Positions 8,974-17,470 of a stretch of DNA of 17,657 bases are shown here, piece by piece. Origin of the DNA: an uncultured Ruminococcus sp. (GTDB lineage Bacteria > Bacillota > Clostridia > Oscillospirales > Ruminococcaceae); NCBI GenBank assembly GCA_934463425.1, contig CAKSJP010000031.1:1-17657 (forward strand). The letters run 5' to 3'. The number at the start of each line of letters is the position of its first letter. Positions within the stretch are counted from its first letter, which is position 1. Made by a program: the position numbers and the translations under genes. Below the pieces are notes generated by a model, which saw only the letters and a list, made by a program, of their open reading frames with translations, searched no databases and was not told the DNA's origin.

Positions 8974-9063
8974 TGGCGCGGAAGGAGGGATTTGAACCCT
9001 CGCGCCGGTTTCCCGACCTACTCCCTTAGCAGGGGAGCCCCTTCACCACTTGGGTACTTCCGC
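8974..9063 (-). tRNA. tRNA-Ser, anticodon GCT
   Basis: The cloverleaf can be drawn by hand on the minus strand. The acceptor stem is GCGGAAG/CTTCCGC with discriminator G, and the CCA is encoded. The D-stem is CCC/GGG. The anticodon stem CTCCC/GGGAG carries loop CTGCTAA, with anticodon GCT (9028-9030). A long variable arm with the GTCGG-gaaa-CCGGC hairpin is typical of a class II serine tRNA, and the T-arm is GAGGG/CCCTC with loop TTCAAAT. It reads AGC and AGT codons. It lies 57 bp after tRNA-Ser(TGA), from the same promoter. Confidence 0.97.
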
Positions 9064-9120: not shown

Positions 9121-9209
<89 letters not shown>

Positions 9210-10610: not shown

Positions 10611-11062
10611 GAATGTTAGTACAGCGTGTGAAGCACGCAAAAGTGACGGTGGACGAGCATGTGACCGGAAGAATCGGACAGGGCTACCTGGTTTTTCTGG
10701 GCGTTGCACCGGAGGATACCCAGGAGATCATGCAGAAGATGGTGGACAAGCTGCTGCGGCTGCGGATCTTTTCCGATGAAAATGACAAGATCAATCTGTC
10801 TCTGCAGGATGTGGGCGGCAGCCTGCTGCTGGTGTCCCAGTTTACCCTCTATGCGGACTGCCGTAAGGGAAATCGCCCCAGCTTTGTGCATGCCGCACCG
10901 CCGGGACAGGCAGAAGCACTCTATGAGGCGTGCAAGGCGTACTGCCGGGAACAGGTGACTGTGGTGGAGTCCGGCATCTTTGGCGCGGATATGCAGGTAG
11001 AATTGTGTAATGACGGGCCGTTTACGGTTATGTTGGATTCGGACGAGATCATCAAGAAGTGA
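10607..11062 (+). CDS. dtd: D-aminoacyl-tRNA deacylase
   Basis: Hydrolyses D-aminoacyl-tRNA and glycyl-tRNA(Ala), so that D-amino acids are kept out of proteins. The 151-residue protein has the SQFTLYADCRKGNRPSF signature (77-93) and the C-terminal NDGPFT motif (135-140), which holds the Gly-cisPro pair that selects chirality. The ATG at 10607 overlaps the SIR2 stop (ATGA) and has GAGGA 7 nt upstream. It is the last gene of the operon; no clear intrinsic terminator follows directly, and the next 200 bp contain a nested inverted repeat. Confidence 0.97.
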   Translation: MRMLVQRVKHAKVTVDEHVTGRIGQGYLVFLGVAPEDTQEIMQKMVDKLLRLRIFSDENDKINLSLQDVGGSLLLVSQFTLYADCRKGNRPSFVHAAPPGQAEALYEACKAYCREQVTVVESGIFGADMQVELCNDGPFTVMLDSDEIIKK

Positions 11063-11070
11063 TTTTCCGC

Positions 11071-11126
11071 TTTTCCACGGCTTTCCACATTGGCATATGT
11101 TGAAAAGTGGATAGTTTTGTGGAAAA
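11071..11126. repeat. Cluster of four DnaA-box-like nonamers in a nested inverted repeat
   Basis: Four sequences close to the DnaA box TTATCCACA lie within 56 bp just after dtd. They are TTTTCCACG (11071-11079), CTTTCCACA (11081-11089), the complement CTATCCACT (11106-11114) and the complement TTTTCCACA (11118-11126). Matches are 7, 7, 7 and 8 of 9. The first and last pair as an 8-bp inverted repeat, with the inner two nested at 7 of 8. It could be a DnaA-binding site, or simply an imperfect hairpin ending the dtd transcript. Confidence 0.4.
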
Positions 11127-11269
11127 CAGGATCGGGTCAAGGAAATATAAAGAGAGAGTTGTGCGGAATTGTATTGACTGAACAAGTGCTGTCCTGGTGA
11201 AATCTTAGGAATGGGCAAAATGCACAAAAACGATACTGGATATTTTACACGAAACCCTATGCTTTTCGG

Positions 11270-11298
11270 TTGACAAAAAGGGTCAGATGTGCTATAAT
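11270..11298 (+). promoter_or_regulatory. Consensus promoter of a non-coding unit
   Basis: A perfect TTGACA (11270-11275) and a perfect TATAAT (11293-11298) are 17 bp apart. The unit it drives ends at a strong terminator 157-200 bp further on, without a plausible ORF between. From 11127 to 11269 I see no gene. Confidence 0.9.
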
Positions 11299-11303
11299 CA
11301 TAA

Positions 11304-11498
11304 CAGAAGCAAGGCAGATGGTTCACAGAACGGAGATCTTGTTTGTGAATAGTGCTTCGACTGAAATACTGCGGCGATAGAATTGCGAATGCCGGCAGTG
11401 TTTCATTGCAATTTAAAATTTTGCAGTTATCTCTCTTTTTCTCATTGCTTTACTGAAACCGTGTTTTTCCCGTGTGGAAGAACACGGTTTCGTTTTTT
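11304..11498 (+). ncRNA. Candidate structured non-coding RNA, about 190 nt, possibly 6S-like
   Basis: A consensus promoter places the 5' end near 11304, and an intrinsic terminator ends the RNA near 11498. The next gene has a separate promoter after that terminator. No convincing ribosome binding site plus ORF lies inside. The RNA can fold into a rod. The 5' AAGCAA (11307-11312) pairs with TTGCTT (11445-11450), next to a CAG/CTG pairing. GGAGAT (11332-11337) pairs with ATCTCT (11429-11434). An apical hairpin TGAAATACTGC/GCAGTGTTTCA (11362-11372 with 11395-11405) has 11 bp including one wobble pair. A closed rod with internal bubbles and this length is reminiscent of 6S RNA, but I cannot confirm the family. 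Confidence 0.55.
11455..11498 (+). terminator. Intrinsic terminator of the non-coding RNA unit
   Basis: GAAACCGTGTT (11455-11465) pairs exactly with AACACGGTTTC (11481-11491). The helix continues inward by five more pairs to a CGTGT loop, giving about 16 bp, and G plus six T residues follow. Confidence 0.93.
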
Positions 11499-11523
11499 CT
11501 GCAGAGCGCTGCTTCAAAATTCC

Positions 11524-11552
11524 TTGACAGAACGCATAAAACAAGGTATAAT
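11524..11552 (+). promoter_or_regulatory. Consensus promoter of the SGNH-dockerin gene
   Basis: A perfect TTGACA (11524-11529) and a perfect TATAAT (11547-11552) are 17 bp apart. The leader of about 60 nt contains a 6-bp stem, TCCGGC (11571-11576) / GCCGGA (11594-11599), just before the ribosome binding site. Confidence 0.92.
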
Positions 11553-11620
11553 GAATCACAGAAGAGGAAATCCGGCAGCAAGGGGGAAACAGCGCCGGAA
11601 AAACAGAAAGGAATTGTACA

Positions 11621-12928
11621 ATGATGAACCAAAAGTTTTTCAAAAGAGGAATCGCAGCGGTATGCGCTGCAGTGACCGCTGCTTCCGGGACCGCGGTAAC
11701 TGCCTTCGCGGATGATGCCGCCGCAGTCGCAGCGCCGCCGGTAACTGTCGTTGCCATCGGTGATGACTGCCTGGCAGAGACAAACGGCACTTCTCCGGCA
11801 AACTATGTGGCAGCATATCTGGGCGGAACTGCTATCAACGATGCAAAGATCGGCACAACCTCGGGACAGCTGGTGAATGATCTGAGTCAGGATCAGAATT
11901 TGCAGAATGATGTGGCATCGGCAGATGTGGTGCTGGTATCGGTGGGTGTCAACGACCTGATCGAAGAGGTGCTGTATGAGAATACAGACCTGGTAGATCT
12001 GTCAACATGCAAAACGCTGAAAGACGTTGCAAACGGACTTTCTACTGATGCAACGAAGCTGGCGGCTGCCAACAAGAAGCTGGCATCAGAACTGCCGGCT
12101 CTGGTAGAGACCATTGCGGCAAACCTGGAAGTAGCTGTCAGCAGCATCCAATCATTGAACAGCAGTGCGGATATCGTGGTACAGACGGTCAATAATCCGC
12201 TGGGCGTGGATTATAATGATAAAAAGGGCATCCTGGAAGGCGTTTCCGACAACCGCCGCGCAGTGATCGCCTATCTCTATAACTATTTGGATGTGGCGCT
12301 CGCCGGCGGCGAGATCACTAATATACTGCTGGAACCCATGACCATCGCACCGGAGAACAGCCTGAATCAGCAGATTCAGAATATCCCGGGCGTGTCTGTA
12401 GCGGACTTTTATGTGCCTTATGTGGGCGCACGGGGCGAAAAGGCAATTGGTTTTACCCTCAGCAACATCTTTGACCTGAACATGACCTTTACTCCGGTGG
12501 GACAGGTGCTTCTGGCGGCGGCAGCCATTCAGTCTACGGATAAGCTCGCATGCGGCAACGGCGGCGTTATTGCAACGGCGTATGCTTCGACCGGCAAGGT
12601 GGCGTCTCTCAAGTCGCTTCGGGCATCCGCGGATGCGATCATTACCGAAGCTACCAAAAAAACAGCTGTTACCTATACCATGGGCGATGCAGATGCAAAC
12701 GGCAGCATCACTGCCACAGACGTTTCTCTGCTGCTGACCTGTGCGGCACAGCTGGGCGCAGGCATGGGCAGCTCTCTGAATCCGCTGCAGCGCAAGGCGA
12801 TGGATGCAGACGGCAGCGGCGTACTAAACGCCAGAGATGCAGCAGTCTGGCTCAGCTATGCGGCACAGTCCGGTGCGGGACTCGACGTGGATCTGGCAGA
12901 ATTTCTGAAACAGTATCAGAATGCATAA
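11621..12928 (+). CDS. Secreted SGNH-like protein with C-terminal type I dockerin
   Basis: The 435-residue protein has a signal peptide (KFFKRGIAAVCAAVTAASGTA, cleavage after AFA at about residue 30). An SGNH-hydrolase-like domain follows to about 310: strand VTVVAIGDD (41-49), NDAKIGTTSG (73-82), and VVLVSVGVNDL with Asn111, which matches the G-x-N-D block. The nucleophile block reads GDDCL instead of GDSL. The final block reads TFTPVGQ (289-295) where HPTPxGH is expected, so Ser and His are both replaced. A linker leads to a dockerin with two full calcium loops, D356-D367 (DADANGSITATD) and D395-D406 (DADGSGVLNARD). The dockerin predicts docking to a cohesin on a cellulosome scaffold. Ester hydrolysis is doubtful. 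AAAGGA lies 8 nt before the first of two adjacent ATGs. Confidence 0.88.
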   Translation: MMNQKFFKRGIAAVCAAVTAASGTAVTAFADDAAAVAAPPVTVVAIGDDCLAETNGTSPANYVAAYLGGTAINDAKIGTTSGQLVNDLSQDQNLQNDVASADVVLVSVGVNDLIEEVLYENTDLVDLSTCKTLKDVANGLSTDATKLAAANKKLASELPALVETIAANLEVAVSSIQSLNSSADIVVQTVNNPLGVDYNDKKGILEGVSDNRRAVIAYLYNYLDVALAGGEITNILLEPMTIAPENSLNQQIQNIPGVSVADFYVPYVGARGEKAIGFTLSNIFDLNMTFTPVGQVLLAAAAIQSTDKLACGNGGVIATAYASTGKVASLKSLRASADAIITEATKKTAVTYTMGDADANGSITATDVSLLLTCAAQLGAGMGSSLNPLQRKAMDADGSGVLNARDAAVWLSYAAQSGAGLDVDLAEFLKQYQNA

Positions 12929-13123: not shown

Positions 13124-14722
13124 ATGGCTGACTTTGAAAACAAAAACAACACACAATGGAATGGAAACAATGCAGCGCAGAATGACGCGGCATCTGTAAA
13201 TACCAACGGTGCAAACGGCGCAGCAGATCCGTATGCATACCAGAACGGCTATTACCGCAATACCACACCGCATCAGGATGAGGCAGTGCACAGCGGCAGT
13301 GCTTATGCCGGCAGCAGTGCTAACGGCAGCGCATACAATGCTTCCGGCAGCGCACCGCAGACACCGCCCACCGGAAACGGCAGCGGCAATAACGGCGGCT
13401 ATACCTATGTGAACTACTACACCAACCCCAACGGCGGCGATCCCAACCAGAAGCCAAAGAAAAAGCATACCGGACTGAAGGTCGCAGCTTTTGTTCTGGC
13501 GATGGTTCTGGTTTCCGGCGGTTCGATCGGTGTGTATGAGAGCATTCGCTCCTCCTCAGCAGACAACGGCAGTTCCATTGTGGCAAGCAATGAGACCTCC
13601 GCTGCGGACAGCAAGAACGATTCCAGCAGCAATGCTTCCAATCAAAAATCGGATTCCGGTCAAAGCTGGATCCAGCTGGCTTCTACCAATGGTTCCATGT
13701 CGGTGGCAGATATTGTAAAGAAGGTAACACCGTCGGTTGTCGGCGTACAGTCCACCTTCACTTCCTCTGCAAACGGCAATACCAATAACAGCTACGGCGG
13801 CTTCTTTGGCTATGGCAATGGACAGAGCGGCAGCGGCTCACAGGGTATGACCGGTGTCGGTACAGGTATCATCATGTCCAAGGATGGCTATATTGTAACC
13901 AACGCCCATGTGATCTATGATGACGAATACGGCTATGGGGAAGCTTCTTCCGTATCCGTTCAGATGTCGGATGAAGAGACCACCTATGATGCGAGAGTCG
14001 TGGCTTACGATAAAGAGGCGGATATTGCGGTGCTGAAAATCGACGCAGACAACCTGACTGCCGCAGAATTTGGCGACAGCAGCAGCTGTGAAGTGGGCGA
14101 GATGGTAGTTGCCATCGGCAACCCGCTGGGACTCCAGTTCCAGAACACCGTTACCTGCGGCATCATCTCTGCACTGGATCGTAAGGTTACTATCAATGAT
14201 AATACCATGACACTGATCCAGACCGACACGGCCATCAACAACGGTAACTCCGGCGGCCCGCTGATCAACAGCTCCGGTCAGGTCATCGGCATCAACTCTG
14301 CAAAGATGTCCAGCACCTATTCCGGTGAGGCAACTGTCGAGGGTATCGGCTTTGCGATCCCGATGTCAGAGGCAAAAAGCATTGTAGACGATTTGATCAA
14401 CTATGGCTATGTGACCGGCCGTCCGCAGCTTGGCATTTCCTGCCAGGATGTGACAGAGGCAGTTTCACAGGCTTATAATATTCCGGTAGGTGCTTATATT
14501 TTCAGCGTAACTGACGGCGGCGCTGCAGATCAGGCAGGCCTGCAGCCGGGCGATGTTATCACCGGCATCCAGGATCAGACTATCACAACTACCGAAGAAC
14601 TGAACGCAGTGAAGAACCAGTATAAGGCTGGGGATACCATTACACTGACCTATGTCCGTGCCGGCGAGACCAAAAAGGTGGACGTTACACTGGCAGAGGT
14701 GCAGAAAACAGAGAGCAACTAA
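13124..14722 (+). CDS. htrA: HtrA/DegP-family serine protease, membrane-anchored, PDZ domain
   Basis: Degrades or refolds misfolded exported proteins on the outer face of the membrane. The 532-residue protein has a long cytosolic N-terminus (about 1-116) rich in Asn, Gly, Ser and Ala, then a basic KPKKKHTGLK stretch. A membrane helix (about 118-137) and a Ser/Asn linker to about 190 follow. The trypsin-like domain has the catalytic triad His262 (VTNAHV), Asp300 (EADIAVLKI) and Ser376 (GNSGGPL). One PDZ domain spans about 433-525 (LGISCQDV, GLQPGDVI). AAAGGA is 9 nt before the ATG. The low-complexity cytosolic tail is much longer than in Bacillus HtrA. It is a single-gene unit with an operator-like repeat upstream, consistent with envelope-stress control. 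Confidence 0.95.
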   Translation: MADFENKNNTQWNGNNAAQNDAASVNTNGANGAADPYAYQNGYYRNTTPHQDEAVHSGSAYAGSSANGSAYNASGSAPQTPPTGNGSGNNGGYTYVNYYTNPNGGDPNQKPKKKHTGLKVAAFVLAMVLVSGGSIGVYESIRSSSADNGSSIVASNETSAADSKNDSSSNASNQKSDSGQSWIQLASTNGSMSVADIVKKVTPSVVGVQSTFTSSANGNTNNSYGGFFGYGNGQSGSGSQGMTGVGTGIIMSKDGYIVTNAHVIYDDEYGYGEASSVSVQMSDEETTYDARVVAYDKEADIAVLKIDADNLTAAEFGDSSSCEVGEMVVAIGNPLGLQFQNTVTCGIISALDRKVTINDNTMTLIQTDTAINNGNSGGPLINSSGQVIGINSAKMSSTYSGEATVEGIGFAIPMSEAKSIVDDLINYGYVTGRPQLGISCQDVTEAVSQAYNIPVGAYIFSVTDGGAADQAGLQPGDVITGIQDQTITTTEELNAVKNQYKAGDTITLTYVRAGETKKVDVTLAEVQKTESN

Positions 14723-15079
14723 TGAGAGCATATTTTGAGATGATAAACAGGCTCTGAGAAGGTGCTGCATCACTGCACTATTTTTTCCTTGACATTTTGT
14801 TTTTTCATACATTCTCCTTATTATTTTTCGGGAAGGCGTCCGGCAGATCTTGTCGGGCGTTTTTCTTTTGCCTGGGAAAAGCGGAAATAGCTTCCACGCA
14901 GCTTTTTGCAGACACACGCAGGATTTTCACATGGTTTCCATAAAGATATGCAATAATAGGAACATAGAAAAACAGAGACCACGCTTTGGGGAATTGGGTA
15001 TCACACGGGAATTTGAGGAGTTTTGAAAATGACGAAGAAGCACCCTGGGGTATCAAGTACAAAAAGGAGCGTGTGCAGC
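14723..15079. other. Spacer between htrA and the beta-helix lipoprotein gene
   Basis: The first part holds a weak hairpin with GTGC/GCAC ends (14762-14778) followed by TATTTTTT, and then a stronger terminator at 14837-14868. From 14870 to 15010 I see no gene and no convincing promoter; AT-rich elements near 14930-14965 could hold a weak one. A second ribosome binding site (GAGGAG, 15015-15020) with an ATG at 15029 is in frame with the lipoprotein gene. Confidence 0.6.
14837..14868 (+). terminator. Intrinsic terminator downstream of htrA
   Basis: CGTCCGGCA (14837-14845) pairs with TGTCGGGCG (14851-14859) with two wobble pairs and a GATCT loop. It is followed by five T, a C and four more T residues. 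Confidence 0.8.
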
Positions 15080-17470
15080 ATGCAAAAGAAAATATTTGCC
15101 TGGGCGATGAGCATGGCGGTAGCAGCCATGATTACCTGTTCCGGATGTGCGCAGAGCGGCACGTCCACTGCCGATACTGCAAACGGCACAGCCCAGACCA
15201 CTACTCTGGATGAGACGGAAAACAATGTCAGCGGACAGAGCCTGTCTGCGATCCAGTCCGGCACAGCCGGCGTGACCACCGACGAGGATGACCTTTGCGA
15301 CAGCTATGACAGCTTCGATGCAGAGATCGCACTGGAGGATGACAACACAAAAGTCACCGGAAACCAAAAGGCGGTTTCTGTCAAGAATAACCGTGTTACC
15401 ATTTCCAAAGGCGGCATCTATCGGATCAGCGGCAAGCTGACCAAGGGGCAGATCGTCGTCACCGGTTCGGAAAAGGTGAAGCTCTATCTGGACGGCGCGG
15501 AGATCACCAGCACATCCGGTCCGGCACTGGTGTGCACCAATGAAAAGCGCACCATCCTGACGCTGGCGAAAGACACGGAAAATGTCCTGGCAGACAGCGC
15601 CGATAACGACGAGACTACCGAGGACGGGAACAATATTGCTGCCTGCGCCCTGTTCGCACAGGATAAGCTGACCATCAACGGCAGCGGCAGCCTCACCGTC
15701 ACCGGAAACAGCGCGGACGGCATTGTCTGCAGGGATGATCTGAAGCTGGTGGGCGGCGCGATCACTGTGGATGCGCCGGAGGATGGCGTAAAGGGGAAGG
15801 ACTGCGTGGCAATGTTCGGCGCAGATCTGACCGTCACCGCCGGAAATGACGGCATCAAGTCCACGGAGAGCACCGATGCGGCAAAGGGCTTTCTCCAGCT
15901 GGAGCAGGGCAGCGCGGCAGTCACCGCCGGCGGCGATTGTCTCCAGGCAGAGTCTCTCGTCTGGGTGACCGGCGGAAGCTATACCCTCACCAGTAAGGGC
16001 ACAGCCACAGACGCAGAAACCGGAGATGCCAACAGCTGCAAGGGCATTCACTGCGGCGGTGATGTGGAGATCTCCGGCGGCACGCTGACCATCGATGCGC
16101 CGGAGGACGGCATGAACTGTAACGGCGCAATGGAGATCCGGGACGGCGATGTGACCGTATCCAGTGCCGAGGACGGCATTCAGGCAGACGGCGACCTCAC
16201 CATCTCCGGCGGAACGGTCTCTGTGACCACCACCGGCGAAGTGGCAGCTTCTGCACAGGACGATTTTCAGCCCGGAAACTTCGGCGGCGAGATGCCCTCC
16301 GGTGATGCACCCTCCGGGAATCCGCCGGAGCTGCCGGACGGTGAGACCTTCGGCGGCGGAAACGCACCGGGCGGCAATCCGCCCGGAAACAACCAGAATA
16401 ACGCTTCTGACAGCGGCGCAAACGTCAGCGATGCCAGCGTGATCCAGGCGGCAGCCATGGAGACCGCGGCGCAGACCATGAACGCAGCAGAGACAGAAGC
16501 GAAAGATAACAGCCAGAGCACAGATACCACAGCTGCGGCGGCAGACGACGCTTCCAGCAAGGGCATCAAGTGCGGCGGTGATCTGGTGCTCAGCGGCGGC
16601 AGCTGCACCATTACTTCTACAGACCACGCCGTCCACGCTGCCGGAACGGCAGTGCTCTCCGGCACGGCGCTGGACATCACCTCGGACAATAAGGGCATCA
16701 GCAGCCACGGCGACCTCACCATTTCAGACGGCACGATCACCATCCGCAGCTGCACCGAGGGCATCGAGTCCAAGGCGGAAATGACCATCAGCGGCGGCGA
16801 GACCCGCATTCTGAACGCCGCCGACGACGGACTGAATACCGGCGGTACAGACAGCAGCACACACGCCATGACCATTTCCGGCGGCTATGTTTACATCAAC
16901 GCGTCCGGCGACGGCATGGACTCGAACGGCACATGGGCAATGACCGGCGGCACACTGCTGGTATGCGGCCCGACCAGCGGCGGAGACGGTTCGCTGGATG
17001 CCAACGGCGATATGACCTATACCGGCGGCACGCTGCTGGCACTGTCCAGCCGGGGCATGATGGAATATCCGGAGAGCGGCTGTCTCATCGCCACCAACTG
17101 TGACGCGGCGGCAGGCGACCAGATCAGCATTGTGGACAAGGACGGTACGGTTCTTGTGACGCTCCAGTCTCCGAAGGCAGTCTCTGACGTGATCTATGGC
17201 ATCGGTGACGGCGACGCGTCCGATTATACCATTGTCACCGGCGGCACATATTCCGGAACGCTGAACGATGACGGCTATGCCGAGGGCGGCACGGTCAGCG
17301 GCGGCACAGAGGTGACCGCAAACGGCGGCACAGGCAGCATGAACGGCGGACAGCCCGGCGATGCACCCGCAGGGCAGCCTGGCGGCGGACAGGGCACACC
17401 GCCCGGCGGATTCAGCGGCGGCACACCGCCGGAAATGCCCGGACAGAACAACAGCACATCCAATTCCTGA
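15080..17470 (+). CDS. Lipoprotein with Cthe_2159-like beta-helix carbohydrate-binding domain
   Basis: The 796-residue protein starts MQKKIFAWAMSMAVAAMITCSGC, a lipoprotein signal with the lipid-carrying Cys at about residue 23, so it should sit on the outer face of the membrane. From about residue 70 it has the pattern of the Cthe_2159-type family (DUF4353), parallel beta-helix proteins that bind cellulose and acidic sugars: short repeats of DGI/KGI, L-x-I-x-GG and T-V-T. Coils run to about 394. A Gly/Pro/Asn-rich stretch (394-447) and an Ala/Thr/Asp-rich stretch (about 448-492) follow, then coils resume with KGIKCGGDLVLSGG (494) to about 730. The tail (747-796) is again Gly/Pro-rich. The ATG at 15080 has AAGGAG 10 nt upstream and gives a compact signal. 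The in-frame ATG at 15029 also has a GAGGAG site but would add 17 residues that spoil the signal. Confidence 0.88.
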   Translation: MQKKIFAWAMSMAVAAMITCSGCAQSGTSTADTANGTAQTTTLDETENNVSGQSLSAIQSGTAGVTTDEDDLCDSYDSFDAEIALEDDNTKVTGNQKAVSVKNNRVTISKGGIYRISGKLTKGQIVVTGSEKVKLYLDGAEITSTSGPALVCTNEKRTILTLAKDTENVLADSADNDETTEDGNNIAACALFAQDKLTINGSGSLTVTGNSADGIVCRDDLKLVGGAITVDAPEDGVKGKDCVAMFGADLTVTAGNDGIKSTESTDAAKGFLQLEQGSAAVTAGGDCLQAESLVWVTGGSYTLTSKGTATDAETGDANSCKGIHCGGDVEISGGTLTIDAPEDGMNCNGAMEIRDGDVTVSSAEDGIQADGDLTISGGTVSVTTTGEVAASAQDDFQPGNFGGEMPSGDAPSGNPPELPDGETFGGGNAPGGNPPGNNQNNASDSGANVSDASVIQAAAMETAAQTMNAAETEAKDNSQSTDTTAAAADDASSKGIKCGGDLVLSGGSCTITSTDHAVHAAGTAVLSGTALDITSDNKGISSHGDLTISDGTITIRSCTEGIESKAEMTISGGETRILNAADDGLNTGGTDSSTHAMTISGGYVYINASGDGMDSNGTWAMTGGTLLVCGPTSGGDGSLDANGDMTYTGGTLLALSSRGMMEYPESGCLIATNCDAAAGDQISIVDKDGTVLVTLQSPKAVSDVIYGIGDGDASDYTIVTGGTYSGTLNDDGYAEGGTVSGGTEVTANGGTGSMNGGQPGDAPAGQPGGGQGTPPGGFSGGTPPEMPGQNNSTSNS

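Follow-up and report, generated by a model that had tools for sequence, protein, structure and literature searches.

Small RNAs (sRNAs) made from the 3' ends of mRNAs are well known, MalH, for example, coming from the malG end, and the pyrimidine-rich anti-Shine-Dalgarno sRNAs of the Firmicutes include RsaE/RoxS and LhrC/RliE. To our knowledge there are few cases in which conversion between sRNAs of mRNA 3' ends and free-standing genes can be compared directly. According to a review, no common targets are known for MalH (Escherichia coli) and MicX (Vibrio cholerae); RsaC and RsaG of Staphylococcus aureus are described as sRNAs arising from the 3' portion of an mRNA, that is, as Gram-positive sRNAs derived from a 3' untranslated region (3'UTR) (PMC9438474). 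In Streptococcus suis and Lactococcus aquaporin-family genes have been named as the target of an sRNA or as a candidate interactor (PMC12005413, PMC13109727), which is a separate matter from the association described here. We present an analysis of a 17,657-nucleotide stretch from an uncultured Ruminococcus sp. (contig CAKSJP010000031.1; henceforth the window), in which a gene for a small non-coding RNA is predicted between dtd and a gene for an SGNH hydrolase. On the strength of sequence comparisons we read it as a free-standing regulatory sRNA gene of one genus-level Ruminococcus-like group, probably acting by base-pairing in trans (probability about 0.68).

The unit lies on the plus strand and is headed by a sigma-A type promoter (TTGACA-17-TATAAT, 11270..11298) which, by consensus scan, agrees with the consensus at 12/12 positions, has a 17-bp spacer and carries a TG preceding the -10. 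In the 4.5 kb scanned there are nine promoter-like sites of at least 9/12, against 4.2 (standard deviation, sd, 2.3) in shuffles, and three of the nine score 12/12. The predicted transcript of ca. 195 nt (11305..11500) has its start placed from the -10 and its end from the T tract of an intrinsic terminator (11454..11499), the stem of which occupies 11454-11492 and is followed by TTTTTT. The initial annotation of this DNA had named both the perfect promoter, which the scan bears out, and the terminator, which stands with 17 stem pairs counted instead of 16. It was also right that the next gene has a perfect promoter of its own: this promoter (11524..11552, plus strand, 12/12 positions) marks the boundary of the unit. 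A mechanical 110-aa TTG frame (11383-11715) runs across the unit. No reading frame is conserved, because the peptides of at least 10 aa differ among the six standalone homologues described below and the aquaporin clade has a module shorter by one base; the ca. 195 nt had likewise been thought to hold no credible open reading frame (ORF). The unit in the window thus shows its own promoter, an intrinsic terminator and no conserved ORF, as is expected of a free-standing sRNA.

Relatives were gathered by a dtd scan (80 loci) and by whole-genome searches. Among the 80 dtd loci the best blastn match of the unit was a promoter-region piece (E 0.024), and in the dtd relative of highest identity (74%; G006 in our numbering of genomes) the last 93 bases of the unit match at 82%. 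The unit is carried by 13 of the 16 genus genomes and by the window, making 14 units. Counterparts of the promoter, hairpin, module and terminator occur in relatives, which agrees with the previously proposed independent structured RNA unit, still a prediction. As judged from these sequences the RNA is a genus-level family with three forms. The standalone form is found in six species (the window, G023, G021, G006, G015 and G022); in the five relatives it comprises its own promoter, at the same place as in the window, a 5' domain of 62-101 nt, an ATTGCAA stretch, the module GCAGTTATCTCTCTTTTTCTCATTGCTTT and a terminator. In the aquaporin form (seven species: G019, G014, G002, G013, G020, G017 and G012) GCATTTATCTCTTTTTTCTCATTGTTTTT begins 14-16 nt past the stop codon of an aquaporin gene and is followed by the terminator. 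The core of this 3'UTR, TATCTCTTTTTTCTCATTG, is one base shorter than the standalone module and present in 7/7, and a strict consensus promoter scan places a single promoter before the aquaporin gene and none internally. These seven relatives, and not the window, thus have the conserved stretch at an mRNA 3' end with a common terminator that characterizes 3'UTR-derived sRNAs. The minimal form, in G018, consists of a promoter, a leader of ca. 36 nt, the variant module ATTTTTCTTTTTCTCATTG and a terminator, with the SGNH gene adjoining.

The unit also reaches further upstream than first described, since a box common to the standalone and aquaporin forms (CACAAAA-N-TTTTACA, 11223..11249, plus strand) begins at 11223, ca. 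20 bp before the -35. In a pattern search (CACAAAA.{8,14}TTTTACA) it precedes the promoter in 5/13 lined-up units (window, G021, G019, G014 and G020), with near-matches seen by eye in others, and occurs once in an unrelated place in 1,085,302 bases of partly redundant loci.

The 29-nt module GCAGTTATCTCTCTTTTTCTCATTGCTTT (11423..11451, plus strand), which we regard as the putative seed, is identical at 29/29 positions in the six standalone species versus 15/171 invariant fourfold sites of SecD (Fisher p 3e-24, an overstatement in that identity served to delimit the module and the sites are not independent). The alignment of the aquaporin clade that runs from the stop codon into the terminator shows no variation at 41/53 columns, as compared with 4/77 coding fourfold sites (p 2e-18). 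Twenty further aquaporin genes from the family, at most 64% identical, were inspected by eye over the ca. 147 nt that follow the stop codon and lacked the module; on this count of 0/20 a general feature of aquaporin 3'UTRs was rejected. That the module is kept both with and without a coding region implies, so far as conservation can tell, that the RNA itself functions. Action as an RNA in trans is the simplest reading, because the stretch is kept in a free RNA and at an mRNA 3' end and is absent from the 20 other aquaporin 3' regions.

The exact core occurs in 7/396 family genomes, in single copy in each, six of them within the genus. A core match in G133, outside the genus, lies antisense in a 1086-codon ORF and was taken as chance. 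The unit was not found in G001, G016 and G011, absences which the draft assemblies make provisional; the loose matches inspected there (up to three mismatches; 7/7 in G001, 7/7 in G011 and 1/9 in G016) included none with promoter, module and terminator. G001 and G016 have the HtrA gene, with no module upstream of it within the stretch examined, and G011 is uninformative, its contig ending 130 nt before the SGNH start. A phage origin was rejected (no phage match, and 0 hits for the exact 20-base core among viral contigs), as was a plasmid origin, the plasmid search having given two short Streptomyces pieces only (E 0.7).

The 196 nt from 11305 to 11500 fold at -67.7 kcal/mol (z -5.28, a value partly due to the terminator), and 0/200 dinucleotide shuffles fold as well. 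In the minimum-energy fold a 7-bp helix ties the 5' end to 11445-11451; inside it lie two separate hairpins, the first at 11363-11404 and a smaller at 11405-11427, and 11428-11444 is left open, with the terminator standing apart. Of the rod with an apical hairpin in the initial annotation, then, the closing helix survives and the single rod does not, and the constrained part of the unit is the stretch before the terminator rather than a rod. The first hairpin, P1 (11363..11404, plus strand), has the same architecture in 6/6 standalone homologues: 15-17 pairs with unrelated stem sequences, and in the loop the invariant motif GAATTGC (11380..11386). P1 was tested by shuffling; shuffled flanks fold as stably with frequencies of 0.0045, 0.001, 0.0585, 0/2000, 0.084 and 0.005 in the six homologues. 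A MAFFT alignment of 4/6 standalone homologues misplaced the hairpin and was unused for pair counts. The standalone 5' domains as a whole are scarcely more alike than shuffles (mean 0.46 vs 0.42, sd 0.06). Downstream of P1, ATTGCAATTT (11405..11414, plus strand) is, from the sequence and folds, an alternative partner of the GAATTGC loop, as a pseudoknot, or of the downstream TTTTGCAG, as a small hairpin. By eye, five of the six have a downstream GCAATT complementary to the loop motif, and in G006 a shifted CAATT takes this role. The pseudoknot is our own reading of what this complementarity may mean, the variation being too small for covariation.

With the unit, its conservation and its two contexts read from the sequence, we infer transcription and an action on targets of the following kind. 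A housekeeping promoter would make the ca. 195-nt transcript, the 5' part of which would fold into hairpins, one of them showing GAAUUGC in its loop. The constrained part is the pyrimidine-rich, partly open stretch UUAUCUCUCUUUUUCUCAUUG right before the terminator. In the sister clade a nearly identical 3' module and a terminator, behind a related promoter, end an aquaporin mRNA at the corresponding locus, from which a short 3' fragment starting near GAGCATTTATC may be released; the module is thus an RNA element serving both a free sRNA and an mRNA 3' end. The RNA is most likely a trans-acting sRNA with a pyrimidine-rich seed, which would pair with other mRNAs at purine-rich regions of translation initiation and lower their translation or stability.

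Targets were sought in the 16 genomes as complementary places with up to three mismatches and through duplex energies of start regions, and no target was found to be kept across genomes. Complementary places numbered 79, versus 27 for a reversed control pattern; six of the 79 are the units themselves (five exact, and G018), and the inspection took in all 57 remaining places that lie outside G001 and G016. Initiation regions are better partners of the module than coding sequence is (mean -9.4 vs -5.6 kcal/mol), an effect of composition. Strong matches occur at the start regions of groEL (G019), dnaK (G013) and clpB (G013), the last with a duplex energy of -25.3, the lowest of 377 start regions in a set enriched for such loci by choice. 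From genome to genome the percentiles run from 2.4 to 36.1 for groEL and from 0.8 to 59.7 for dnaK (13 genomes each), and the shuffled-seed p from 0.003 to 0.56 for groEL (14 genomes) and from 0 to 0.73 for dnaK (15 genomes). The ClpB-like start of G013 with this lowest duplex energy, at locus L213, has two module-complementary stretches in the ca. 90 nt upstream of the start codon.

Several of these results speak against a base-pairing sRNA, over and above the qualification attached to the Fisher test. Among 100 shuffles of the module 76 pair with initiation regions as well or better (155 start regions), as do 73/100 for the aquaporin-clade version, and the difference between initiation and coding regions is matched by 15 and 16 of 100 shuffles for the two versions. 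The groEL and dnaK matches are not kept across genomes, and that of clpB was examined in G013. In the folds the module is no more than partly unpaired (mean 0.35 to 0.78), and in the minimum-energy fold of the window its last bases are paired with the 5' end of the RNA. A hairpin with GAATTGC in the loop, by our criterion, also arises in 19-37% of the shuffled flanks per sequence, the product over the six being 0.0006. Lastly, the genus is represented by 16 genomes, mostly drafts, and the window, which is a small set.

The failure of the target search to give a specific result would suit another account, in which the module is a site for an RNA-binding protein or nuclease (Hfq-like, cold-shock or KH) and the RNA a protein sponge, or the site a protection of 3' ends, with no base-pairing targets. 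The stretch before the terminator is indeed U/C-rich, and the conserved block is longer than a usual short seed. We nevertheless consider this account rather improbable, since an end-protecting element would hardly be expected to last as the principal conserved portion of a free, non-coding RNA, and a single exact copy per genome in one genus only would be unusual for a general protein site. Still less credit can be given to a cis element acting on the SGNH hydrolase gene or on termination before it: that gene adjoins 11/14 units, whereas in the window it has its own promoter, and in G021, G015 and G020 it does not adjoin and the core is intact. A functionless relic of a lost aquaporin gene, reduced to promoter and 3' end and perhaps transcribed, would account for the promoter box and 3' end common to both forms and for the aquaporin gene not being found in G006, G021, G022 and G023. 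Such a relic should not, however, keep 29/29 positions over six species in which 15/171 fourfold sites are invariant, nor a hairpin with an invariant loop motif, and we hold it to be very improbable.

The initial annotation had, in addition, suggested either a divergent 6S RNA or an undescribed RNA class, to be decided by a covariance search with the 6S model (RF00013) and all of Rfam. The length of ca. 195 nt, the promoter of its own and the structured character of the RNA recall 6S RNA, and the pairing of the 5' end with the end of the module gives a partly rod-like fold. In contrast, the search of the window with RF00013 gave nothing at E up to 1, nor did that of a 246-base stretch at E up to 10. 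Among 17 genomes searched 13 have RF00013 matches at E up to 1 and six above the cut-off (G021, G023, G011, G015, G022 and G018, of which G011 is the nearest relative of the window by SecD), none of them at the sRNA unit. In all but G011 of these six the 6S gene is on a different contig from the unit, which is thus the case in 4/5 standalone-form relatives; the fifth, G006, gave no 6S match. The long rod with a central bubble is not kept either, the single-sequence folds of the homologues consisting of separate hairpins and the terminator, with a closing helix in some. A divergent 6S RNA, with true 6S located elsewhere in relatives, can therefore be given almost no weight. The other suggestion, an undescribed class, fares well: Rfam 15 gave nothing at or above the gathering cut-off for the window unit or for the loci of 8/13 related units, the best score (rliE, 14.3 bits, E 3.9) being at chance level. 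No description of the RNA was met with in Rfam 15 or in the openly licensed literature searched by word, where an earlier report is nevertheless possible.

Returning to the regulatory sRNA and its relation to the aquaporin mRNA, we incline, by a little, to the view that in one unit a structured, non-coding 5' part was replaced by an entire coding region, or a coding region by such a part, with the promoter region, seed and terminator kept. Either an sRNA gene may have taken up an aquaporin ORF and become a dual-function mRNA, or an aquaporin mRNA may have shed its ORF and become a regulatory RNA. The answer would depend on the place of G018. Were it in the standalone clade, one change would be enough in either direction; were it in the aquaporin clade, one change would be needed if the sRNA came first and two if the aquaporin did. 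In the SecD tree the aquaporin clade is joined by G018 and G001 (93/90). SecD, GroEL and DnaK together, with missing rows, do not separate the two placements and give approximately unbiased (AU) test values of 0.549 and 0.491 for grouping them with the aquaporin or the standalone clade, respectively, and of 0.011 for the third arrangement (Shimodaira-Hasegawa, SH, 0.174), and the MalF, HtrA and SGNH identities give conflicting groupings. The minimal form in G018 leaves the sRNA-first direction possible. An aquaporin gene was found in 9/16 genomes, namely the seven of the aquaporin form and, as distant copies (ca. 60%) which lie elsewhere and without the module, G015 and G018; it was not found in G006, G021, G022, G023, G001, G011 and G016, with the absences provisional in these drafts.

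With regard to the surroundings, MalF/MalG-like permease genes lie upstream of 11/14 units (the seven of the aquaporin form, and G023, G021, G006 and G022); the upstream place is taken by dtd (10613-11062) in the window and by another gene in G018. The SGNH hydrolase gene (11621..12928, plus strand), with a dockerin-like C-terminus (both Pfam matches are below the curated cut-off), is the next gene in the 11 units already mentioned. Its product diverges rapidly, with 25-31% identity between the standalone and aquaporin clades; the adjoining HtrA-type protease (13124-14722) keeps ca. 52-57%. In G011, locus L150 has, after a MalG-like gene near the contig end, three head-to-tail copies of a 224-nt segment (bases 45-716; identity with the first copy 100, 96 and 67%). 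In the window four DnaA-box-like sites, two per strand, fall within 56 bp (11071-11126) in the gap from dtd to the sRNA promoter; sites of this kind (TTWTCCACA, up to one mismatch) number 17 in the window vs 7.1 in shuffles. Elsewhere in the window a perfect promoter (9263-9235) precedes two tRNA-Ser genes on the minus strand (8974-9063 and 9121-9209; anticodons gct and tga), and the large protein specified by 15050-17470 contains a carbohydrate-binding domain of the Cthe_2159 type (PF14262).

Among the close relatives studied here one unit exists in three states, its constrained stretch nearly unchanged, and therefore which part matters can be tested. With RsaE/RoxS and LhrC/RliE the predicted RNA would share a pyrimidine-rich stretch able to cover purine-rich ribosome binding sites, although the best Rfam score of this kind, that of rliE, is the chance-level one given above. 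RsaC and RsaG resemble what would hold in the aquaporin clade, where the 3' part of an mRNA would be the source of the sRNA; they differ from the window, the form of which is free-standing, and the release in the aquaporin clade is our conjecture. Another parallel is with MalH and MicX, in which, as here, one locus carries both modes; beside the malG origin of MalH can be placed the MalF/MalG-like genes upstream of most units. We claim no sequence relation to these RNAs, and here the host is an aquaporin mRNA in which the module is almost unchanged.
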